This document shows, piece by piece, positions 2,207 to 61,293 of a stretch of 64,000 nt of DNA. The first letter of the stretch is position 1, and each line of letters opens with the position of its first letter. The translations under genes were made by a program, and so were the position numbers. The notes beneath the pieces were generated by a model that was not told where the DNA came from, did no database searches, and worked only from the letters and a program-made list of their open reading frames with translations. The stretch is from Streptococcus chenjunshii (GTDB taxonomy: Bacteria; Bacillota; Bacilli; Lactobacillales; Streptococcaceae): NCBI RefSeq assembly GCF_003086355.1, contig NZ_CP031733.1, positions 1,674,001-1,738,000 on the forward strand, in the 5' to 3' direction.

Positions 2207-4891
2207 TTAGATAGCTTTTTTGTCTTGACCGGCTGCTCGCTGTACGGCCTTAACCAGTTCAACAATAAGGACCATCAGAAGGCTGCCGAGAACAACAACT
2301 CCCCATTGTGTTAAACTCAAATGGGCAACATGGAAGAAAGTATTGAAGCCCGGAATAGCAATCGTTGACATCAAAAGAACAAATGCCACCGGAATAGACC
2401 AGTTAAAGAGTTTATTTTTAAAGAGTCCTACTTTAAAAATAGACTGATAAACCGACTTGACGTTAAAGGCATGAACCAGCTGAATCAAGCCCAGTGTCGC
2501 ATAAGCCATAGTCAGGGCATCCTCGTGTATAGCCTGACTGCCCGCATGTTCAGGATTAATAATAGCCCAGCCGTAAACCCCTAAAACCAGCAGCGTCTGC
2601 AGAATTCCCTGATAAATAATGGCCCCCATCACACCGCCTGAAAAGAAACTGGATTGGCGGCCGCGCGGTTTGTGTCTCATAACTCCCGGTTCAGCCGGCT
2701 CAACTCCCAATGCAATAGCAGGCAAAGTATCAGTTACCAAATTAATCCACAGCAGATGAACCGGTTCTAACACATCCCAGCCAAAAAGGGTAGCAAAAAA
2801 GATGGTAAAGACTTCAGCCATATTAGCTGACAAAAGGTATTGAATTGATTTTTGAATATTAGAGAAGACCTTGCGCCCCTCTTCAACCGCTACAATGATT
2901 GTCGCAAAATTATCATCGGCAAGTACCATATCCGAAGCGCCTTTAGAAACTTCCGTCCCGGTAATTCCCATACCGATACCGATATCAGCTGTTTTAAGAG
3001 ACGGTGCATCATTAACTCCGTCACCTGTCATAGCCACTACCTTGCCCTCATTTTGCCAGGCTTTAACGATTCGCACCTTATGCTCCGGCGATACACGCGC
3101 ATAAACAGAATACTGTTTGAAAACTTTTTGGAACTCTTCATCTGATAATTCATTCAGTTCAGCGCCAGTAAAGACATGATCTTCCACATCATCCGCTTCA
3201 ATAATGCCAAGCCGTTTAGCAATAGCTTCCGCTGTATCCTGATGGTCTCCCGTAATCATAATCGGACGTATGCCCGCCTCTTTGGCTACACGAACAGCTT
3301 CTGCGGCTTCTGGCCGTTCTGGATCAATCATACCGACAAGTCCGGCAAAAATAAGATGGTTTTCAATAATATCTGAATCGAGTTCCGGTACCCTGTCTTC
3401 ATATTTGTAGGCCATCATCAGCACGCGCAGAGCTTGTTTGGCAAGCGATTTATTAGCGGCAAGGATGGTTTCCCTGTCAGCCTCTGTAATCGCACGAACA
3501 GACCCGTTTTCTTCAATCTGTGTGACACGTTTAAGCAGCTGATCCGGTGCCCCTTTGACAGCCACTAAAAACTTACCATCTGCTATTTTATGGATGGTTG
3601 ACATAAGCTTCCGGTCAGAATCAAAAGGAATTTCTCCCACACGCGGTTCTTCTTTTAGCGCTTCACGAACATCAAAACTATGGTCAAAACCGTATTGTAC
3701 AAGCGCTGTTTCTGTCGGATCACCAATCAATTTTCCTTTTTGATCAACCTTAGTATCATTTGCAAAGTTCATAATTCGAAGCGCCATATTGTTCGCTTCA
3801 ATATCATCATTGGCATCATGGAGCTGACCATTGTAATACATTTTTTCAACAGTCATTTGATTCATCGTCAGTGTCCCTGTTTTATCAGAGGCAATAATTT
3901 CTGTAGATCCCAATGTTTCAACAGCAGGAAGCTTGCGCACAATCGAATTACGTTTAGCAAGCGTTTGTGTCCCCAATGACAGAACAACTGTCACGATAGC
4001 CGGGAGACCTTCCGGAATCGCAGCAACAGCAAGGGCTACAGCAGTCATCAGACCAGTGAGGACTTCCTGACCGCGAAGAAAGACACCAACTATAAAAGTG
4101 ACCAGCGCAATAGCCACGACAACATAGGTTAGGAACTTAGACAGCTGATTTAAATTTTGCTTAAGAGGCGTATCTGTCTCATCGGCATTAGCCAGCATCC
4201 CCGCGATATGGCCAACCTCAGTATACATACCGGTGTTGGTAACCAGCCCCATACCGCGGCCATAAGTCACATTTGAGTTTTGATAAGCCATATTCAGACG
4301 GTCGCCAATACCGGCATCAGCAGGAACCGCAGCCGATAAATCTTTATCCACAGGAACCGATTCTCCTGTAAGGGCAGCCTCTTCAATCTTGAGCGAGTTA
4401 GCCTCTAAAAGCCGCATATCAGCCGGAACAACATCGCCCGCTTCCAGCATAACAATATCGCCGGGAACAAGCTCCTTTGCATCAACTTCTTTTACATGAC
4501 CGTCGCGGCGGACTCGCGCTAAGGGACTGGACATTGATTTTAAAGCGGCAATGGCAGCTTCGGCCTGTCCCTCCTGATAAACACCAAATGCAGCATTTAA
4601 AATAACAACAGCCAAAATAATAATGGCATCTGTAACACCTTCTCCGCCTGACGTGATAACCGACAGAACCGCAGCAACCAGCAGGATAATAATCATTAAA
4701 TCCTTAAACTGATCAATAAACTTGGCAAAAAGAGTGCGCTTCTCTCCTTCATCCAGTTCATTGCGGCCATAATCGGCCAGACGCTGCTGCGCTTCTTGAG
4801 TTGTCAGCCCCTTTTTAGAGCTTTCCAAAGCGGATAGCACAGAAGATACATCCTGCGTATAAAACGTTTCTTTCTTTTGTTCTTTTGACAA
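2207..4891 (-). CDS. mgtA: cation-transporting P-type ATPase, MgtA/PacL type (likely Mn/Ca exporter)
   Basis: The protein has 894 residues. It contains an N-terminal cation-ATPase domain, the actuator motif TGES (about 180), the phosphorylation motif DKTGTLT (about 338), MTGDGVNDAP (about 620) and about ten membrane helices. It starts with TTG at 4889-4891, eight bases after a strong AAGGAG. The family (P2A) exports Ca2+ or Mn2+. The upstream yybP-ykoY riboswitch argues for manganese detoxification, as reported for streptococcal MgtA. Two hairpin repeats lie between riboswitch and start codon, so the transcript carries a leader of about 430 bases. The substrate is inferred from family and riboswitch, not from residues alone. 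Confidence 0.9.
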   Translation of the reverse strand: MSKEQKKETFYTQDVSSVLSALESSKKGLTTQEAQQRLADYGRNELDEGEKRTLFAKFIDQFKDLMIIILLVAAVLSVITSGGEGVTDAIIILAVVILNAAFGVYQEGQAEAAIAALKSMSSPLARVRRDGHVKEVDAKELVPGDIVMLEAGDVVPADMRLLEANSLKIEEAALTGESVPVDKDLSAAVPADAGIGDRLNMAYQNSNVTYGRGMGLVTNTGMYTEVGHIAGMLANADETDTPLKQNLNQLSKFLTYVVVAIALVTFIVGVFLRGQEVLTGLMTAVALAVAAIPEGLPAIVTVVLSLGTQTLAKRNSIVRKLPAVETLGSTEIIASDKTGTLTMNQMTVEKMYYNGQLHDANDDIEANNMALRIMNFANDTKVDQKGKLIGDPTETALVQYGFDHSFDVREALKEEPRVGEIPFDSDRKLMSTIHKIADGKFLVAVKGAPDQLLKRVTQIEENGSVRAITEADRETILAANKSLAKQALRVLMMAYKYEDRVPELDSDIIENHLIFAGLVGMIDPERPEAAEAVRVAKEAGIRPIMITGDHQDTAEAIAKRLGIIEADDVEDHVFTGAELNELSDEEFQKVFKQYSVYARVSPEHKVRIVKAWQNEGKVVAMTGDGVNDAPSLKTADIGIGMGITGTEVSKGASDMVLADDNFATIIVAVEEGRKVFSNIQKSIQYLLSANMAEVFTIFFATLFGWDVLEPVHLLWINLVTDTLPAIALGVEPAEPGVMRHKPRGRQSSFFSGGVMGAIIYQGILQTLLVLGVYGWAIINPEHAGSQAIHEDALTMAYATLGLIQLVHAFNVKSVYQSIFKVGLFKNKLFNWSIPVAFVLLMSTIAIPGFNTFFHVAHLSLTQWGVVVLGSLLMVLIVELVKAVQRAAGQDKKAI

Positions 4892-4910: not shown

Positions 4911-5021
4911 AAGATACAAAGGCCGTTTAAAAATCCGTATGAAAATAGGGAAGGACGAGCGATAATCTGCACTGCGACGGACTTCATCTTTTTCACTAGG
5001 ATTTTAGGCCGTGTTCAATTC
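4911..5021. repeat. hairpin repeat unit 1 (AT-stem variant)
   Basis: A 111-bp unit beginning AAGATACAAAGGCCGT and ending TTTTAGGCCGTGTTCAATTC. The inner stem is AAAATCC/GGATTTT followed by GAAAA/TTTTC. It belongs to the dispersed family discussed in the findings and lies inside the mgtA leader. Confidence 0.85.
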
Positions 5022-5025
5022 AAAC

Positions 5026-5125
5026 AAGATACAAAGGCCGTTAAGAAATCTGTATGAAAAGGCGGTAAGCTAGAAATCTGTGATTTCGCAGACGCCCCTC
5101 TGCCATAGACGGTTTGAAAACCGAG
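5026..5125. repeat. capping (type D) hairpin repeat
   Basis: Begins with the same AAGATACAAAGGCCG start, then diverges into GGCGGTAAG and the hairpin GAAATC TGT GATTTC. It lacks the AGGCCGTGTTCAATTC right end. The right boundary is approximate. Confidence 0.7.
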
Positions 5126-5202: not shown

Positions 5203-5237
5203 AAAACAAAAAGAGACCTGTTTATTTAAACAAGTCT
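5203..5237 (-). terminator. riboswitch-controlled terminator in the mgtA leader
   Basis: On the minus strand the arms AGACTTGTTTA and TAAACAGGTCT pair and are followed by CTTTTTGTTTT. The upstream arm overlaps the 3' end of the aptamer, as expected of an expression platform. Confidence 0.7.
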
Positions 5238-5316
5238 CGCTGTTTAAGACCCGGCCGGAAATTTCTTTCGTAATGACGACCGGAGCCACGGTAAAACCGT
5301 CTGCTACTCCCTTGAT
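5228..5316 (-). promoter_or_regulatory. yybP-ykoY manganese riboswitch
   Basis: Read on the minus strand, the conserved blocks appear in order: GGGAGTAGC, then CCGGTCGTCATTACG, then TTTCCGGCCGG and GCGAGAC. These are the signature sequences of the yybP-ykoY aptamer, which binds Mn2+ and turns on exporters. An intrinsic terminator overlaps its 3' end and the P-type ATPase gene follows. Boundaries are approximate. Confidence 0.9.
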
Positions 5317-27823: not shown

Positions 27824-27857
27824 GAATAAAATTAAACACAGCCAAAAAGCTGTGTAA

Positions 27858-27991
27858 TACCATAGGTCAAAAAAGCAGAGGTTCAAGTTTTACGTTGCCT
27901 TTCTAGTCGTCTTGACAGTGGTGTGCCTGCGAAATCAAAGATTTCGGACTTGCCGCCTTTTCATACGGATTATTTATGGCCTTTGTATCTT
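27858..27991. repeat. capping (type D) hairpin repeat, reverse orientation
   Basis: Its reverse complement begins AAGATACAAAGGCC and contains GGCGGCAAGTCC and the GAAATC TTT GATTTC hairpin. The left boundary is approximate. Confidence 0.7.
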
Positions 27992-27995
27992 GTTG

Positions 27996-28109
27996 GAATT
28001 GAACACGGCCTAAACGCTGTGAGAAAAAGACCGCCCTTCCTTGAGTCTTCAATGACTCAGCGGTCGGACGCCTATTTTCTCTTTGCGTTCTTTACGGCCT
28101 TTGTATCTT
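27996..28109. repeat. hairpin repeat unit (AACGC-stem variant), reverse orientation
   Basis: 114 bp, the near-identical reverse complement of the units at 58627 and 58745. The stem is AACGC/GCGTT with GAGAAAA/TTTTCTC. It ends 18 bases before the gpo start codon, abutting its ribosome site. Confidence 0.85.
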
Positions 28110-28127: not shown

Positions 28128-28604
28128 ATGGCATATCTTTACGATTTTACAGTTAAAGCTCAAGATCAGTCGGATGTCTCTCTGCGGGACTATCAAGGCT
28201 CTGTTGTTTTGGTCGTCAACACTGCAACCGGATGCGGCTTAACCCCGCAGTATGAAGGACTGCAAAAGCTCTATGACACTTATCGGACACAAGGTTTTAC
28301 TATCCTTGACTTCCCATGCAATCAGTTTATGGGACAGGCGCCAGGAACAGCCGAAGAAATTAATAGCTTCTGTACGTTGAACTATCAAACCACATTCCCG
28401 CGCTTTGCTAAGATTGAGGTCAACGGTAAAAACACTGTTCCGCTTTATCAATGGCTGAAAGCTGAGAAAAAGGGGCCTTTAGGCCAAAAAATTGAATGGA
28501 ATTTTGCTAAATTTCTCATTGACCGTCAAGGCAATGTGGTCCAGCGTTTTTCGTCCAAGACAGAGCCTGATGACATTGACGCTGCTGTCCAAAAACTGCT
28601 GTAA
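28128..28604 (+). CDS. gpo: glutathione peroxidase family protein (thiol peroxidase)
   Basis: A protein of 158 residues. The peroxidatic Cys sits in NTATGCGLTPQYEGLQ (about 32-47), in place of selenocysteine. LDFPCNQFMGQ (about 63-73) supplies the Gln and the possible resolving Cys, and WNFAKFLID (about 124) the Trp/Asn of the catalytic tetrad. Bacterial members usually reduce peroxides using thioredoxin. AAGGAG lies nine bases before the ATG; an in-frame start at 28083 would fall inside the hairpin repeat and is rejected. The repeat immediately upstream may influence its expression. Confidence 0.9.
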   Translation: MAYLYDFTVKAQDQSDVSLRDYQGSVVLVVNTATGCGLTPQYEGLQKLYDTYRTQGFTILDFPCNQFMGQAPGTAEEINSFCTLNYQTTFPRFAKIEVNGKNTVPLYQWLKAEKKGPLGQKIEWNFAKFLIDRQGNVVQRFSSKTEPDDIDAAVQKLL

Positions 28605-32433: not shown

Positions 32434-32521
32434 AACATCACAAAGGAGTGCTTCGGCTGAGATCGCACCTGCGAAATCCTCAAAACCTGATCTCGTTAGA
32501 ACGAGCGTAGGGATTGTGACC
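32434..32521 (+). promoter_or_regulatory. TPP riboswitch (THI element)
   Basis: The conserved TPP aptamer blocks are present: GGAGTGC, GGCTGAGAT, then AACCTGATCT and AACGAGCGTAGGGA. It lies directly upstream of thiT. Confidence 0.95.
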
Positions 32522-32545
32522 ATTTAAATATTGGTGGCCGGACTG

Positions 32546-39021: not shown

Positions 39022-39132
39022 AAGATACAAAGGACGTTTAAAAAGCGACTGAAAAATAGGGGCCCAACCGATGTGTTGCAAAACACAAGGGAGGGACATC
39101 TTTTTTCCGAGCTTTTAGGCCGTGTTCAATTC
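39022..39132. repeat. hairpin repeat unit (AAAAGC-stem variant)
   Basis: 111 bp with the common ends. The inner stem is AAAAGC/GCTTTT and the loop-proximal stems are GATGT/ACATC and GTGTT/AACAC. Confidence 0.85.
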
Positions 39133-39135
39133 ATT

Positions 39136-39330
39136 AAGATACAAAGGCCGTGAAAAAATCCATATGAAAAGGCGGTAAGTCCGAAATCTCTGATTTCGCA
39201 GACGCACCCCTGCCAGGATGACTAGAAGGGTGCGGTCGGCTGTTAAGACGACAAAGCCTTCAGTCAGCTACGGCTGGCGGTAAGTCCGAAATCTCTGATT
39301 TCGCAGACGCACCTCTGCCAGGACGACTAG
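39136..39330. repeat. capping (type D) hairpin repeat with an internal duplication
   Basis: Begins AAGATACAAAGGCCGTG. The segment GGCGGTAAGTCC through GCAGACGCAC occurs twice (about 39166 and 39279). It contains GAAATC TCT GATTTC and GCACCC/GGGTGC hairpins. The following 39331-39535 region is non-coding, with a long-range GCCTAGC/GCTAGGC pair. Confidence 0.7.
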
Positions 39331-41842: not shown

Positions 41843-42046
41843 AAACTTCATCTCTTTGAACAATTTCTCGAAAAAATGGTGACAAAATTCTGCTTTTATG
41901 TTATTATAGTTCAGTATTTCAAAACTAAACACAGATTATGTTAAAGAAAAGGCTCTCTGGCCCCGCTTTGACGGGCAGCCTAATCAGCAGCCGATGCGGC
42001 AAAAACTTTAGACCGCCTTTATATTTTAGTAAAAGGAGGGATGTGT

Positions 42047-45621: not shown

Positions 45622-45775
45622 AAGATACAAAGGCCGTGTAAAAATCCGTATGAAAATGGCGGTAAGCCAGAAATCTGTGATTTCGTTGGCGCACCCCTGC
45701 CAGGATGACTAGAAGGGTGCGGCAGGATGTCGAGACTGCAAAGCTTTCAGACGTCTGCGGCTGGCTAAAACTTAA
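45622..45775. repeat. solitary type D hairpin repeat
   Basis: Begins AAGATACAAAGGCCGTG. The stem closing the conserved GAAATC TGT GATTTC hairpin is GCCA/TGGC here, while other copies have GTC/GAC. GCACCC/GGGTGC follows. The remaining bases to 45903 show no gene. Confidence 0.75.
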
Positions 45776-54265: not shown

Positions 54266-57200
54266 CTAATTAAGCAGTTCTTCCGCTTCTTTGAGTTTGA
54301 CAGAAACAATTTTTGACACACCTGATTCCTGCATAGTGACCCCATAAATACTGTCAGCTGCAGCCATTGTCCCTTTACGGTGAGTCACCACGATAAACTG
54401 GCTGGATTTGTCAAAACGGTTGAGATAATCTCCGAATCGTTTAACATTTGCCTCATCAAGGGCAGCCTCCACTTCATCAAGTATAACAAAAGGAATCGTT
54501 CTGACGCGAATAATCGCAAATAATAGCGCTAAGGCAGACAAAGCTTTTTCGCCACCGCTCATCAAATTGAGCGATTGAATTTTCTTACCTGGCGGCTGTA
54601 CGGAAATCTCGATACCAGCTGTTAAAAGATCGCCTTCGGTTAAGAAGAGATCGCTGGAACCGCCGCCAAACATTTGCTTAAAGGTTTCTTTGAAGCTGTC
54701 ACGGATAGCTGCAAAAGTGACTTTAAAACGGTTTTTAACTTCATCATCCATCTCATGAATGGTTTCAAGCAGCAGATTTTTAGCCCGAACCAAATCGTCC
54801 TTTTGGCTGTTTAGAAAAAGAAGACGCTCGTTAACTTCATCATATTGCTCGATCGCATCGACATTAATCGGCCCCAAAGCTTTGATCTGACGCCGCAGCG
54901 TCTGCAGCTTTTGCCTTGCTAGTTTACTGTCTTCAATGGTTTGGGCCCTAGTTTTAGCTTCATCCAAGGTCATCTGGTAATCCTCTGCCAGACTGCGGGC
55001 AGAAATCCTCAGTCTTTCTGAAATCTGTTCAATCTCCGCTTCATATTGAGCTTGCTTGCGGATAAAAACTTCGTTTTGCTGGTTAGCCTCCTGAACAGCC
55101 AGTGATAGTTCCTCAAGCTGAGCTTCGCAATCCTCCAGTTCAATACGGAGCTGGACTAAACGTTTTTCATCCTCTTCTTTCCTTGCTTTGGCTTCTGACA
55201 GCTGTGTCTGCAGTTTCGGCAGCTCTTGATCAGCTGAAAGACTAAGCCGGTCTCTTAAAAGGACTTCCAGCTCTTTAATATTCGTTTCTGTCTCCGTCAG
55301 ATTGTTTTTTAAACGGTTTTTATTAGCTTCTTCGAATTTCTTTTCGCTGAGCAGCTCACGCTCATCAAGCCTTGCCTTGGCTAATTCCTGAGCCAGATTA
55401 TCCGCTTTTTGACTGAGGACACCCTTATTCTCCTTGATTTGCTCAATTTCAGCTGTCAATGCTTCTTTTTTCTCAGCTAAACCAGCTAAAAGCTGCTCAA
55501 ATTTTTCCTTTTCTTCGTTTAAGTGCTCTTTTGCCTGATCAGCACTGCCGGCTTTCAGCCCCTGATAAACTTCCTGCAAGTCGCCGAGCCGCTCTGACAG
55601 CCGATTATATTCCAGTTCAGCCCTTTGTTCAGCTAAACGGGCTGTTTCTCCTTCCGTTTTTATTTCTTCCAGAGACGCTTTCTTTTCTGTCAGAACCTGT
55701 TTCAGTCTGCCAACCAGCTGTTCCTGTTTATGCTGATTGATCTTTTCGGCATCGATCTCAGCTGTCAAATGTTCCAGTTCAGGCTTAACAAAGCTTGTGC
55801 TGTTTTGACGACTGCTGCCGCCAGAAAAAGAACCACCCGGGCGGATTTCTGTCCCGTCAAGTGTCACCAGACGAACCTGATATCTGAGGAGGCGGGCAGC
55901 GCGATTAGCATTGTCAACGGTATCAAAGAGGGCAGTTAGACCTAAAAGGTTTTTAAATATCTTTTCTAAATCAGGCGAAAAAACTGCCAGTTCGCTGGCT
56001 GCACCCAGAAAGCCTTGACAAGATGCCAGCTTAGAGAGATTCTGCGATGACAGCTCTCTGGGTTTAATCGTCGTCAAAGGCAGAAAAGTAGCTCGTCCCT
56101 GTCTGTTCTTTTTCAGGTAAGCGATAGCCCGCTTTGCGGCAGCTTCATCAGCTACAATAATATGCTGGCTGCTCGCCCCCAGAACAATTTCAAATGCGGT
56201 CTGGTAATCATGCGGAAAGCTTAAATGTTCACTGACTGCGCCAATAATACCACCGAGCTTTGCTGAGTTTTGCAGCACTGCTCTGACCCCAGCATAAAAG
56301 TTACTATGATTTTTTATTATAGCCGACAAGCTGTCCCGTCTAGCTTCCTTTGCCCTAAGCGAATCGGCCAGAGCAAACATTTTTGCGCGTTCATCTTCAT
56401 ACTTCTTTTCATCTGTTTGAAGCTGCTGAGAAAGATTTTGATATTGGTCCAGCAGTTCTTTCAGTACGTTCTTAGCCTTTGCAACATTGGCCGAGGCATT
56501 TTCAGTCTCCTGACCGGCTGTTTCCAGTTCCTGCTGAAGCTGTTCAATTTCCTCAGCCTGCGATTCTGACAGCTGTTTCTGATTGTCTATCTCTGTCAAA
56601 ACAGCCGTTAAATTATTGGAAGCATCAGCTTCTTTCTGCATTATTTGCACAAAGTTTTCACGCAGCTTTTCCAACATCTGATCCGGATCGGATGAAATGC
56701 GTTCTGATTCGGCTTCCAGTTCCTTTATTTCAGCAGACAGACGGGTCAGCTTCTCCGATAATTGCCGCAGGTATTCTTCTTTATCCGCTAAATCACTTTT
56801 TAAAGAAGCAGCCTCTGCATTAAGGGCAGTCAAACGCTGATCTGCTTCCTGTTGGCGCTCTTGTTTTTGGCTGGATTCCAAATTAATCAAATCAATTCGC
56901 CGTTCAGTGTCAGCAAGCAGCCGCGTAAGTTCGACCAGACCAGTCTGTTTCTGGTTCATTTCTTCCGAAATGGTATGCCGGCGTTTTTTCAACGTTTGAT
57001 TCTTAGTTTCTAAATTCTGACGCTCCTTATAATAGACCGATAATTGTTTCTTGACCTCTTCAAGTTCTTGGGTACTGCGGTCCAGCTTCAATTTATCATT
57101 ATCAATATCTTCTACCAGGATATCCAACTGGAGCTGTTTACGCTGCTCTTCCAGCGCTAAAAATTCTTTTGCCGTCTGTGCTTGTTTTTCGAGCGGCTTT

Positions 57201-57805
57201 ATCTGAGTTTCTAATTCATAAATAATATCTGCCAAACGATCTAAATTATCTTGAGTCTGACCGAGTTTACTCTGAGTTTCTTTTTTACGGGTTTTATATT
57301 TTAAAACACCGGCAGCCTCCTCAAAGATAGCACGCCGTTCCTCAGGTTTACTGTTAAAAATAGCTTCAACACGTCCTTGAGAAATAATAGAAAAAGAATC
57401 CCGCCCCAGTCCGGTATCCATGAATAAATCATGGACATCACGCAGACGTACCTTACGCCCGTCAATCAGATAATCACTGTCACCGCTGCGGTAAATATGG
57501 CGCTCAACACGGATTTCGTCTTTGGCCTCTTTAATAAAACCATCACTGTTATCCAAAACAACCGTAACTTGAGCATAATTAAGCGCCTTACGATTCTCAG
57601 TTCCGGCAAAGATGACATCGGGCATCTTGCCGCCGCGCAAGCTTTTGGCACTGGATTCTCCCAGTGCCCAGCGCAGACTTTCAGTAATATTGCTCTTGCC
57701 AGAACCATTAGGACCGACAACAGCTGTCACTCCTTTATCAAAGGTAATCTTCGTTTTATCCGCAAAGGATTTGAAGCCCTGCATTTCAATTTCTTTTAAA
57801 AACAT
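54266..57805 (-). CDS. smc: chromosome partition protein SMC
   Basis: A protein of 1179 residues, the full length. The N-terminal head has Walker A GPNGSGKSN (about 32-40). Two long coiled-coils flank a hinge (about 500-680; LGGIIGAVSEHLSFPHDYQ, then GGSFSGGSSRQNS). The C-terminal head has the signature LNLMSGGEKALSALALLFA (about 1080) and Walker B FVILDEVEAALDEANV (about 1107). It compacts and segregates the chromosome with ScpAB. It follows rnc by seven bases in the conserved rnc-smc operon. Confidence 0.97.
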   Translation of the reverse strand: MFLKEIEMQGFKSFADKTKITFDKGVTAVVGPNGSGKSNITESLRWALGESSAKSLRGGKMPDVIFAGTENRKALNYAQVTVVLDNSDGFIKEAKDEIRVERHIYRSGDSDYLIDGRKVRLRDVHDLFMDTGLGRDSFSIISQGRVEAIFNSKPEERRAIFEEAAGVLKYKTRKKETQSKLGQTQDNLDRLADIIYELETQIKPLEKQAQTAKEFLALEEQRKQLQLDILVEDIDNDKLKLDRSTQELEEVKKQLSVYYKERQNLETKNQTLKKRRHTISEEMNQKQTGLVELTRLLADTERRIDLINLESSQKQERQQEADQRLTALNAEAASLKSDLADKEEYLRQLSEKLTRLSAEIKELEAESERISSDPDQMLEKLRENFVQIMQKEADASNNLTAVLTEIDNQKQLSESQAEEIEQLQQELETAGQETENASANVAKAKNVLKELLDQYQNLSQQLQTDEKKYEDERAKMFALADSLRAKEARRDSLSAIIKNHSNFYAGVRAVLQNSAKLGGIIGAVSEHLSFPHDYQTAFEIVLGASSQHIIVADEAAAKRAIAYLKKNRQGRATFLPLTTIKPRELSSQNLSKLASCQGFLGAASELAVFSPDLEKIFKNLLGLTALFDTVDNANRAARLLRYQVRLVTLDGTEIRPGGSFSGGSSRQNSTSFVKPELEHLTAEIDAEKINQHKQEQLVGRLKQVLTEKKASLEEIKTEGETARLAEQRAELEYNRLSERLGDLQEVYQGLKAGSADQAKEHLNEEKEKFEQLLAGLAEKKEALTAEIEQIKENKGVLSQKADNLAQELAKARLDERELLSEKKFEEANKNRLKNNLTETETNIKELEVLLRDRLSLSADQELPKLQTQLSEAKARKEEDEKRLVQLRIELEDCEAQLEELSLAVQEANQQNEVFIRKQAQYEAEIEQISERLRISARSLAEDYQMTLDEAKTRAQTIEDSKLARQKLQTLRRQIKALGPINVDAIEQYDEVNERLLFLNSQKDDLVRAKNLLLETIHEMDDEVKNRFKVTFAAIRDSFKETFKQMFGGGSSDLFLTEGDLLTAGIEISVQPPGKKIQSLNLMSGGEKALSALALLFAIIRVRTIPFVILDEVEAALDEANVKRFGDYLNRFDKSSQFIVVTHRKGTMAAADSIYGVTMQESGVSKIVSVKLKEAEELLN

Positions 57806-57812
57806 TTCTTCC

Positions 57813-58499
57813 TCACTGGAATTGATCTAAAGCTTTTTTGGCAGCTGTCTGCTCAGCTAATTTTTTCGACCTGCCGGTTCCGCGGCTGAGTTCTCTTTCA
57901 TTGACAAAAACAGCTACTTCAAATACTTTGTCATGTGCCGGTCCGGACTCAGCAACAACTCGGTAATCAATAAAAACATCCCCTTGAGTCTGAAGCAGCT
58001 CCTGCAGCCCCGTTTTATAATCCTTAACACGTTCAAAATTGCCTTTTTCAACTTGGGGAATCATCACCTGATCTAAAAATACTTTAACAGTCTCCAATCC
58101 CTGATCCAAAAAAAGCGCCCCTAAAAATGCTTCAAAAAGGTCTCCTAAAATAGTATCACGGCTGCGGCCGCCAGACTTTTCTTCTCCTTTCCCCAGTTTG
58201 ACAAACTGGTCAAAACCGCATTGGCGTGAAAAACCAGCCAAACTTTCTTCACGCACAATCACTGATCGCCGCTTAGACAGTTCCCCTTCAGCTTTTTGCG
58301 GGTACCTTTTAAATAAATACTGAGAAATCAACAGCTGCAGAACCGCGTCTCCTAAAAATTCCAAACGTTCATTGTGTGAAATGTTTAGGAGACGATGTTC
58401 ATTTGCATATGACGTATGCGTAAAAGCCGTATCCAATAAACTCGCATCGCTAAAGCGAATCTTAAAATCAGTTAACAATTTATGTTCTAAATTCTTCAT
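57813..58499 (-). CDS. rnc: ribonuclease III
   Basis: A protein of 228 residues. The RNase III signature [17 protein letters not shown] (about 40-56) and catalytic Asp/Glu in [15 protein letters not shown] (about 115-129) are intact. A C-terminal dsRNA-binding domain ends [17 protein letters not shown]. It processes rRNA and other double-stranded RNA. The start at 58499 has GGAGGGG upstream; an extended frame would run into a hairpin repeat and is rejected. An array of four hairpin repeats begins 13 bases upstream. A hairpin-rich leader next to RNase III may be a substrate of its own product. Confidence 0.95.
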
Positions 58500-58511
58500 A
58501 ACCCCTCCAAC

Positions 58512-58623
58512 AAGATACAAAGGCCGTGTAAAAATCCGTATGAAAATAGGGGATGGCAAGTGATGCCTAAGCATCACGATGACAGCCATCTTTTTCACTA
58601 GGATTTTAGGCCGTGTTCAATTC
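58512..58623. repeat. hairpin repeat array, unit 1 (AT-stem variant)
   Basis: 112 bp. The stem AAAATCC/GGATTTT matches 4911-5021, but the interior is different, with GATGGC/GCCATC and GTGATGC/GCATCAC pairs. It begins 13 bases upstream of the rnc start codon. Confidence 0.88.
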
Positions 58624-58626
58624 CAC

Positions 58627-58740
58627 AAGATACAAAGGCCGTTAAGAACGCAAAGAGAAAATAGGCGTCCGACCGCTGAGTCACTAAAGACTCAAGGGAG
58701 GGCGATCTTTTTCTCATAGCGTTTAGGCCGTGTTCAGTTC
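58627..58740. repeat. hairpin repeat array, unit 2 (AACGC-stem variant)
   Basis: 114 bp with AACGC/GCGTT and GAGAAAA/TTTTCTC stems and GAGTC/GACTC at the tip. Identical to the next unit. Confidence 0.9.
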
Positions 58741-58744
58741 CAAC

Positions 58745-58858
58745 AAGATACAAAGGCCGTTAAGAACGCAAAGAGAAAATAGGCGTCCGACCGCTGAGTC
58801 ACTAAAGACTCAAGGGAGGGCGATCTTTTTCTCATAGCGTTTAGGCCGTGTTCAGTTC
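58745..58858. repeat. hairpin repeat array, unit 3, exact copy of unit 2
   Basis: 114 bp, identical to 58627-58740 by eye. The tandem period is 118 bp. This indicates a recent duplication. Confidence 0.9.
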
Positions 58859-58862
58859 CAAC

Positions 58863-58985
58863 AAGATACAAAGGCCGTGTAAAAATCCGTATGAAAAGGC
58901 GGCAAGTCCGAAATCTGTGATTTCGCAGCCGCACCCCTGTCAGGACGGCAAAGCTTTCAGACGTCTACGGCTGGCGGCAAGCAAG
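58863..58985. repeat. capping (type D) hairpin repeat at the array end
   Basis: Begins AAGATACAAAGGCCGTG, then GGCGGCAAGTCC and GAAATC TGT GATTTC. It closes the array as in the other loci. The bases to 59122 show no gene. Confidence 0.75.
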
Positions 58986-59122: not shown

Positions 59123-59932
59123 CTAAATTTTGGTCAAAGGAGTTGCTGTATCAGGCGATGTATCAAAAACTTTAAAATCAGTTCCAGCTCCTAAATCTGC
59201 GGCTAAAAGACTGGTCTCCATCGTCATATGTGCAAGCTCTTTAATATTGTTTTCTTTACTAAGATGGCCTAAGTAGATCTTTCGTGTCCGATTGCCGATT
59301 GACCGAATCATAGCCTGCGCACCGTCATCATTGGACAGATGGCCTCTGTCCGACAGAATACGCTGCTTGAGCCGCCAAGGATACGAACCGGACCGAAGAA
59401 TCTCAATATCATGATTCGATTCAATCAAGTAAGCATCTGCGTTTTCAATCAAGCCTGCTAAACGGTCACTGACATACCCGGTATCTGTCAGCATGACAAA
59501 ACTTTTATTATCTTTCATAAACCGATAAAACTGCGGCTCGGCTGCATCATGACTGACACCGAAACTTTCAATGTCAAGGTCGCCAAAAGTCATCATGCTG
59601 CCGCGTTTAAAAATATGCTTTTGTTCTTGGCTGACCGAACCAATCATATGATGTTCGTCTATTACCTGCCACGTTTTTTCATTGGCGTAGAGGTCCAAAT
59701 GATATTTACGCGCTAAAACACCGACTCCTTTTATATGATCTGAGTGCTCATGTGTAATTAAAATAGCATCAAGATCTTCCGGTTTGCGGTTGATTTCAGC
59801 TAAAAGACTGGTAATCTTCTTACCAGTCAGGCCAGCATCAACCAAGATCTTTTTTTGGTCAGTTTCAAGATAAAAACTGTTACCGCTGGAACCTGATGCT
59901 AAAACACTGTACTTAAATCCGCTTTCTGACAT
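59123..59932 (-). CDS. vicX: metallo-beta-lactamase-fold protein VicX (WalJ)
   Basis: A protein of 269 residues. It has the MBL zinc motif THEHSDHIKG (about 60-69), SSGNSFYLE near the N-terminus and later metal ligands in MLTDTGYVS (about 157) and HLSKENN (about 226). The family is related to YycJ/WalJ, a nuclease-like protein linked to wall and DNA homeostasis. It starts two bases after vicK in the vicRKX operon. The start at 59932 is the family N-terminus, MSESGFKYSVLASGSSGN. Confidence 0.92.
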   Translation of the reverse strand: MSESGFKYSVLASGSSGNSFYLETDQKKILVDAGLTGKKITSLLAEINRKPEDLDAILITHEHSDHIKGVGVLARKYHLDLYANEKTWQVIDEHHMIGSVSQEQKHIFKRGSMMTFGDLDIESFGVSHDAAEPQFYRFMKDNKSFVMLTDTGYVSDRLAGLIENADAYLIESNHDIEILRSGSYPWRLKQRILSDRGHLSNDDGAQAMIRSIGNRTRKIYLGHLSKENNIKELAHMTMETSLLAADLGAGTDFKVFDTSPDTATPLTKI

Positions 59933-59934
59933 AA

Positions 59935-61293
59935 TCAGTCGCTGTCTTCCTCCCACTCTTCATAAATACTAGTACTAGCAGACTTTTCATAAGGCAAAAC
60001 AATGGTAAAGGTCGAACCTTTCCCGTATTCACTCTTGGCCCATATAAAGCCTTGATGCTGCTTAATGATTTCCTTAGCAATAGCCAGACCCAGCCCTGTT
60101 CCTCCTTGAGCCCTGCTTCTAGCCTTATCGACGCGGTAAAAACGGTCAAAAATTAAGGGCAGATCTTTTTTAGGGATACCCAGCCCTTCATCAGCAACTG
60201 CGATAATCAGCTGGGTGTCTGTTGTTTTCATACTGATTGTAATATTGGCCCCGTCCGGAGAATATTTTATAGCATTGTTGATAATATTATCCAGCACCTG
60301 AGTCATTTTATCTGTATCAATTTCAATCCAAACAGGTACATTGGGATAATCACGGACAATCTCATAATACTTCCCGCCAAAGCTCTCTTGATTTTTAATA
60401 TGGTCAAAACGATCCAGCACCGATGTCATAAAGGCCGTGAAATTAATCATTTCGATATCCAACTGAGTAACTTGATTATCAATTCTGGACAAATTCAGCA
60501 AATCAGAAATCATCCGCATCATCCGGTTGGTCTCATCCAAAGAAACTTTGATGAAACTGGGAGCGATATCCTCTTTGAGTGCCCCCTCATCCAAAGCCTC
60601 CAGATAGGATTTTACAGATGTTAAAGGCGTCCGCAGCTCATGACTGACATTTGAAACAAACAAGCGCCGTTCGCGTTCTTCTTTTTCCTGCTCTGTGGTA
60701 TCGTGCAAAACAGCTACCAGACCTGAGATAAAGCCGCTTTCTCTCCGATTGAGGGCAAAGCGGATACGCAAAGTAATAAATTCATCAAATTCATTGCGCT
60801 GATCCAAAACAAGCTCTGGCGTTTTTGCTACTAAATCGCTGTAGCTGTAGGGACTGTCTTGACCTAAAATATCCACAATATTCAGCTGTAATGCCTCTTC
60901 ACGCTTTAAATTCAGCTGTTTTTGTGCCATCTCGTTGATCATAGTAATCTGCCCGGTTCGGTCAGTAGCCAGCACTCCGTCAGTCATATAAGCAAGAATA
61001 CTTGCCAGCCGGTTTTTTTCCTGAGCCAGATTTTCATGGGTGAGCTGAAAAACTTTAGACAGATCATTGAGGTGTTCGGCCAGTTCCCGCATATCGGCAT
61101 CACCTGTGACTTTGATATCCCCCGTGTAATTGCCAGTAATTAAATTCCTGACTTTATCACTGAGCATACGTATATTCTTAGAAAAACGAAAGTCGCGAAT
61201 AGCCAGATGGATAAAGTAAAAGGCCACAAAAACAAGCAGGATTAGAATAGCAAGTTCAAAAGTGTTTAGATTGCCTATAATATCATTATTCAT
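59935..61293 (-). CDS. vicK: sensor histidine kinase VicK (WalK)
   Basis: A protein of 452 residues with a single N-terminal membrane helix (about 10-31), the streptococcal WalK arrangement. HAMP (about 35-85), PAS (about 95-200; [16 protein letters not shown]), the dimerisation domain with phospho-His in [13 protein letters not shown] (about 215-227) and the ATPase domain with N, G1 and G2 boxes ([33 protein letters not shown]) follow. It senses cell-wall status and phosphorylates VicR. It overlaps vicR by eight bases. Confidence 0.96.

Follow-up and report, generated by a model that had tools for sequence, protein, structure and literature searches.

A modular, apparently MITE-like hairpin repeat of streptococci, placed mainly at translation-initiation regions in Streptococcus chenjunshii

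REP/REPIN sequences, found together with RAYT (Y1) transposases, are imperfect hairpins present in hundreds of copies; they leave no target-site duplication (TSD), and a single-strand mode of movement has been proposed for them. The MIRU repeats of mycobacteria are small tandem repeats situated at the translation signals of operons, their target being overlapping stop and start codons. According to Croucher et al. (PMC3049150), the streptococcal repeats BOX, RUP and SPRITE are nearly confined to S. pneumoniae and S. mitis and are over-represented between convergent genes, BOX and RUP giving TSDs, and SPRITE being characterized by AAAA/TTTT ends and a mean GC content of 28%. For S. suis, that report describes the RepSU1 / BOX-type families A–C and E–F, with modules of 115 nt in boxE and 133 nt in boxF. 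In phage T4, structure between the Shine-Dalgarno sequence (SD) and AUG can aid initiation, as described for genes 25 and 38 (PMC3014915), where the two signals lie 22–27 nt apart.

The repeat analyzed here occurs in a 64-kb window of the S. chenjunshii genome (the window being the whole stretch of DNA analyzed), and we read it, at a probability of roughly 0.6, as a non-autonomous, MITE-like small hairpin repeat that is widespread in Streptococcus and often located at gene edges, in S. chenjunshii mainly at translation-initiation regions. Like BOX, RUP and SPRITE, it is short, dispersed, predicted to fold into hairpins, MITE-like and clustered, and it shares its modularity with BOX; unlike them, it is widespread in the genus, shows no clear TSD and is placed at SDs in two genomes, and the impression of the earlier note that it does not look like these three holds against their descriptions in PMC3049150. 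The BOX-type families of S. suis are also modular streptococcal repeats, and S. suis carries the hairpin family as well, whereas the module sizes of boxE and boxF, compared by their description, do not fit a whole unit of 110 nt. With REP/REPIN the repeat has in common the imperfect hairpins, the hundreds of copies and the lack of a TSD, but not a matching Y1 transposase; with MIRU, the tandem small repeats at translation signals, but not the sequence, the phylum or the target. Some copies resemble the T4 genes in having putatively structured RNA between SD and AUG that would bring both to working distance, and differ in being a 110-nt dispersed repeat, located at prfA and dnaJ. MITE insertion preferences were consulted in PMC10969869. 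In agreement with the proposal that the family is undescribed, neither an Rfam family nor a named repeat in the literature searched, mostly outside subscription journals, corresponds to it; within that literature the family is unnamed, and it may have a regulatory role.

The end motif AAGATACAAAGGCCGT is present in the window in 11 copies at 0–1 mismatch and in 14 at up to 3 mismatches, versus 0.58 expected from shuffling, and the second motif, AGGCCGTGTTCAATTC, in 6 copies at 0–1 mismatch and 9 at up to 3 (versus 0.58, likewise by shuffling). The count of about eleven units given in the earlier note was thus confirmed, nine of its eleven coordinates being exact starts of AAGATACAAAGGCCGT. As to the other two, 27996 is the start of AGGCCGTGTTCAATTC on the other strand and marks the low end of a unit that we model at 27998–28109, while 27858 falls inside a divergent variant (27831–27991), about 27 bases from its edge. 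Full units had been put at 111–114 bp; the model gives six full short copies of 109–112 nt, and five of the eleven ends (5026, 27976–27991, 39136, 45622, 58863) are part of variants that are either longer or decayed (Table 1). In the variant at 58863 a 5′ end motif was sought and not found. The strand used previously is antisense for most neighbouring genes; on the opposite one the unit reads AYTGAACACGSSC...GSSCTTTGTATCTT, the consensus in the direction of most neighbouring genes being A-Y-TGAACACGSSC ... GSSCTTTGTATCTT. At 42012–42027 (−) an end motif with 3 mismatches stands directly before AAAAGGAGG and an ATG on the other strand, perhaps a decayed element. Rfam gave no match at the units, and elsewhere only the SSRC10, TPP, and S10 and S15 leader families were recognized: the Streptococcus sRNA SSRC10 (RF02617, 73.2 bits) at 5208–5316 (−) adjoins the 4911/5026 array, and the TPP riboswitch (RF00059) lies at 32434–32530 (+).

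Table 1. Repeat units and adjoining features in the 64-kb window
Feature	Coordinates	Strand	Remarks
Full unit 5′ of P-type cation ATPase gene (2207–4891)	4911–5019	−	SD AAGGAG 5 nt on
GTATCTT end of long variant	5026–5041	−	tandem to 4911 unit, linker GTTTGA
161-nt divergent variant	27831–27991	+	tandem to 27998 unit, linker GTTGGA; model R1, 29.2 bits, E 0.0036
Full unit 5′ of glutathione peroxidase gene (28128–28604)	27998–28109	+	SD AAGGAG 5 nt on
Full unit, then terminator-like hairpin instead of SD	39022–39130	−	SD-rule miss
GTATCTT end of long variant	39136–39151	−	tandem to 39022 unit, linker AATGA
GTATCTT end of long/decayed variant, then terminator-like hairpin	45622–45637	−	SD-rule miss
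RNase III gene rnc, first gene past array	57813–58499	−	Pfam Ribonuclease_3 and dsrm; start 12 nt from array
SD GGAGG, directly past rnc array	58504–58508	−	3 nt from GTATCTT
Full unit, gene-proximal in rnc array, AAAATCC/GGATTTT stem type	58512–58621	−	RNA folding z −5.05
Full unit, AAACGC/GCGTT type	58627–58738	−	linker GTGGA to previous unit; identical to 58745–58856
Full unit	58745–58856	−	identical to 58627–58738
Long or decayed variant	58863–58985	−	GTATCTT end 58863–58878 certain; far end as in the earlier note

The array starting at 58512 occupies, with three or four units, the leader of rnc, between a gene for a metallo-beta-lactamase-fold protein (59123–59956) and rnc itself, which is followed by an SMC gene (54266–57805). 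Among the matches listed, from which its own species was possibly left out, the nearest named relatives of this rnc are those of S. orisratti and S. equinus (78–79%). The location invites the thought that RNase III might regulate its own expression via the array.

Genome-wide, the end motif was matched 477 times at up to 2 mismatches in 2.44 Mb (230 forward, 247 reverse), the reversed-pattern control giving 1. A scripted census of 464 kb (the window and 20 evenly spaced stretches of the same genome) yielded 67 full units, along with isolated ends (39 of the 3′ and 14 of the 5′ kind), part of which are chance matches. The full units measured 107–117 nt in 44 cases, 161–166 nt in 11, 209–219 nt in 8 and 270–422 nt in 4, the long forms having additional internal modules, one of which is itself tandem. 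The unit GC content is 31–52%, and linkers such as TGTGTGA or ATGGA recur inside the arrays. Among 45 short units, 24 pairs situated at separate places are at least 95% identical (best 99%). The repeat is, as expected of a MITE, short, non-coding and multicopy.

The main feature of the family in S. chenjunshii, which was absent from the earlier note although orientation relative to genes had been named there as worth checking, is a fixed orientation and spacing to the SD: in this genome and in another Streptococcus genome, G021, the GTATCTT end points towards the gene, tight against the SD and start codon. Within the 464 kb, 38 of the 48 array-terminal GTATCTT ends are followed by an SD and a start codon 12–22 nt on (a four-base SD match plus a start codon at that distance that begins an ORF of 60 codons or more), compared with 1216 of 20000 random positions (6.1%) and 6 of 51 other GTATCTT sites. 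The ten misses are diverse. By eye, one (L027:1528, GGGGGG and then ATG) resembles a start. Runs of purines similar to an SD occur at L013:19243 and L019:17453, four (39022 and 45622 of the window, L016:13095 and L019:7404) are located upstream of terminator-like hairpins, window 12407 and L015:220 are probably weak motif matches, and the tenth is L026:16799. With plain longest-ORF calls, a position between ORFs could be assigned to 36 of 47 arrays; the following gene was co-directional in 29, and in 21 of those the upstream gene as well. Individual genes may have units of their own, as do the PTS genes of L010 (EIIA and EIIC by Pfam, one unit apiece) and the ATP synthase gene in L016. From the approximately 48 arrays in 464 kb, and assuming an ordinary gene density, about a tenth of the genes is estimated to carry the repeat. 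A sequestration of the SD by the CCTTT of the unit was rejected: the mean SD openness was 0.35 with the unit, 0.32 with a shuffled unit and 0.55 for the leader alone, the SD was more open than with the shuffled unit in 19 of 38 cases, and no common design was seen. Nor do arrays appear to start at promoters, a −10-like hexamer being present in 10 of 36 versus a background of 24%.

At one mismatch at most, the 16-mer end was present in 88 of 118 Streptococcus genomes. The search of this and other genomes with a model, as proposed in the earlier note, was carried out with model R1. Of 246 genomes belonging to the order, 46 gave matches, namely 33 of Streptococcus, its own included (15 candidates scored in each), and 13 from four genera of one other family, f2; one listed Streptococcus gave none, and the listing left out 180 genomes lacking a match. 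The f2 matches are weak (best 49.7 bits), yet they form tandem arrays of ~121-nt units, e.g., 121-nt hairpins at L137 3175–4146 and at other sites of the genome G126, and the unit plan, ATTGAGC ... AAAAAAGATA ... CCTATTTTT ... GCATCTT, is by eye like the streptococcal one. We take them as relatives, an independent origin being the alternative.

The placement rule is not general. It was followed by 8 of 12 ends in G021, but by 1 of 11 in G059 and by 3 of 32 at single loci of other genomes, all these stretches having been chosen for holding copies. Among 54 distinct units in other Streptococcus loci, 7 have an SD directly before them and a start codon 2–6 nt after them (6 at prfA, 1 at dnaJ), 8 have a start within 14 nt and no SD between (5 at dnaJ, 2 at carB, 1 at prfA), 5 precede an SD and a start in that order, 9 directly adjoin the stop of an opposite-strand gene (rpsO among them), and 25, several of which are tandem-internal, belong to no gene-edge class. 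Release factor 1, DnaJ, carbamoyl-phosphate synthase and S15 were recognized by Pfam in one or two representatives each, and the remaining gene-edge genes were named by their identical beginnings. The split ribosome-binding sites concern two genes, prfA and dnaJ, in related genomes. Downstream of rpsO (L139–L147), a different long inverted repeat (CTTGCTGGATAAAACGTTT...) stands in several genomes where others have the hairpin element. In G059, the copies of L090, L092 and L093 are followed by sequences that end like TTTTTATAGAGTATAA and resemble BOX ends, possibly nested repeats.

Presence and absence of the element at one site were observed twice. At prfA, 6 of 30 loci have the order SD, element, ATG, a decayed copy is present in one, SD and ATG are uninterrupted in 22, and one was unaligned; the element-bearing genomes are related, so they do not represent independent events. 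Within a host repeat of G021, nine copies are filled (L169, L170, L172, L173, L174, L177, L178, L179, L182) and four are empty (L175, L176, L180, L181) at nearly the same junction, L171 having another upstream flank and L183 being a chance match. Different unit types, or two units in tandem, occupy this junction. The junction being almost the same in all filled copies, these may derive from a single insertion, perhaps followed by amplification and exchange. No clear TSD was found in 60 distinct outer flank pairs or at the G021 site; over 100 settings of the test, the largest excess was 8 versus 3.3 expected for 2-mers and 4 versus 1.0 for 3-mers. In the 824 kb examined, from three genomes, no autonomous parent was encountered, sought as a copy whose hairpin ends are 450–4000 bases apart. 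S. chenjunshii has a single match to a Y1 (IS200-type) transposase (L184, C1:213295–213651), which belongs to an IS200-like element with other ends, and no Y1 transposase was found in 5 of 16 genomes, including G101 and the copy-rich draft genome G295; accordingly, this type of enzyme was rejected as the mobilizer. Phages and plasmids were also considered as carriers and set aside, two queries having no phage match, a third matching two S. gallolyticus records annotated as phages, and the single plasmid match having a coverage of 42%. In the phage-annotated S. gallolyticus record MN270258 (L168, 3001–3105), a copy precedes an agglutinin receptor gene.

The co-variation of the stems, noticed in the earlier note, was reproduced in an alignment (A1) of 35 non-redundant short units from many genomes, 4 of 39 having been dropped as odd. 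RNAalifold derived from it five stacked helices, with two-sided changes in 22 of 29 pairs; 91.7% of the cells were paired versus 72.0% after shuffling, and the covariation score was 0.509 versus 0.164 (sd 0.012), a value reached by none of 500 shuffles, although the structure is favoured by its derivation from the same sequences and related rows are not independent. With sliding partners the score was at most 0.126. In the outermost helix GAACA.GSSC pairs imperfectly with GSSC..UGU.UC, possibly as a terminal inverted repeat, and stems differ between units as blocks. The inference drawn earlier, of a structure under selection in RNA or single-stranded DNA, is not borne out by the count of G:T cells, which make up 1.8–3.0% of the total, near A:C in number: 17:21 of 955 in A1, 26:29 of 1454 in A2 and 69:44 of 2333 in A3, the last leaning to G:T (distinct rows were kept if 75% or more paired, which left 33 of 35, 52 of 59 and 84 of 94, and the fitting of A2 and A3 to the model biases both towards pairs). 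In 26 tRNAs of the same loci there were 54 G:T (9%) and no A:C among 581 cells, a zero that is biased as the program demands pairs. The rarity of G:T, hardly commoner than A:C, fits better with palindromes at the DNA level than with classical RNA selection; the near equality of the two only weakens the case for RNA selection, because neutral decay of young copies would give a similar equality.

With G:T so low, template-switch copying of one arm from the other, or exchange of modules as blocks, could also make the covariation. In that account, the arms correct each other, modules recombine and no structural selection is needed, which is compatible with the MITE-like reading; in its favour, nearly all pairs are Watson-Crick, stems differ as blocks and different interiors occur at one G021 junction. 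Conservation of the ends and of some unpaired internal positions over many genomes is not explained by arm-copying alone, and G:T exceeds A:C in A3. Considering both sides, we hold this origin of the covariation to be a tenable but less probable one. An unlikely explanation is that of a cis-regulatory RNA module, by which hundreds of mRNAs would share a leader hairpin read by one protein or RNase (e.g., RNase III) and form a post-transcriptional regulon. It would account for the sense orientation and leader position in S. chenjunshii, the array that the RNase III gene itself has in its leader, the strong RNA folding (z from −2.2 to −5.1 in all ten units tried) and the internal sequences conserved in many units, i.e., AAAAAGAT and CCTATTTT beside helix 3 and CCTAG and CGTC around the tip, which recur more loosely, by eye, in the other family; the scarcity of G:T, A3 and the biased tRNA zero notwithstanding, argues against it, as do the many copies of G059 and of the single loci of other genomes that lie outside leaders or, in antisense, past stop codons.

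The end sequence has been reported for S. suis serotype 24 as a CRISPR direct repeat, GGAATTGAACACGCCCTACAAGCT (PMC8733411), and the element in question appears to be a tandem array of the hairpin repeat. A CRISPR array as such was rejected, the stretches between the end motifs being homologous hairpins and not unrelated spacers. That the family belongs to the S. suis BOX-type families (A–C or E–F, PMC3049150) or to another described streptococcal repeat is very improbable: its interior is modular as in BOX and S. suis carries its end sequence, but it is widespread whereas BOX, RUP and SPRITE are reported as nearly restricted to two species, 214 loci contain no exact match to a BOX primer fragment, and the SPRITE ends and GC content differ from those of the units.

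Taken together, these data are best reconciled by the non-autonomous, MITE-like repeat. It would spread by a putative transposase acting in trans and insert beside SD-like purine tracts, where copies would be tolerated as both ends pair together and the ribosome-binding site stays outside the fold; an element between SD and AUG would be tolerated because folding into the hairpin joins both signals, as happens in the T4 genes. Selection on the sites where copies survive could also give the placement pattern without any targeting. As a part of the 5′ leader, a unit probably alters mRNA stability or translation of individual genes and does not serve one designed regulon. A bolder joint reading, which we regard as rather improbable, is that, over much of the genus and more loosely in another family, an SD-homing mobile hairpin has connected genes, perhaps a tenth of them in some species and that of RNase III included, to a shared 5′-leader module, some genes having a ribosome-binding site split until the hairpin folds. 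If the MITE-like reading is right, one unnamed family would constitute a large part of some streptococcal 5′ leaders, would explain at least one reported array resembling a mistaken CRISPR, and would provide natural split ribosome-binding sites in cellular genes; it would also be open to test whether mobile elements may favour translation signals and alter the expression of genes while leaving these intact.
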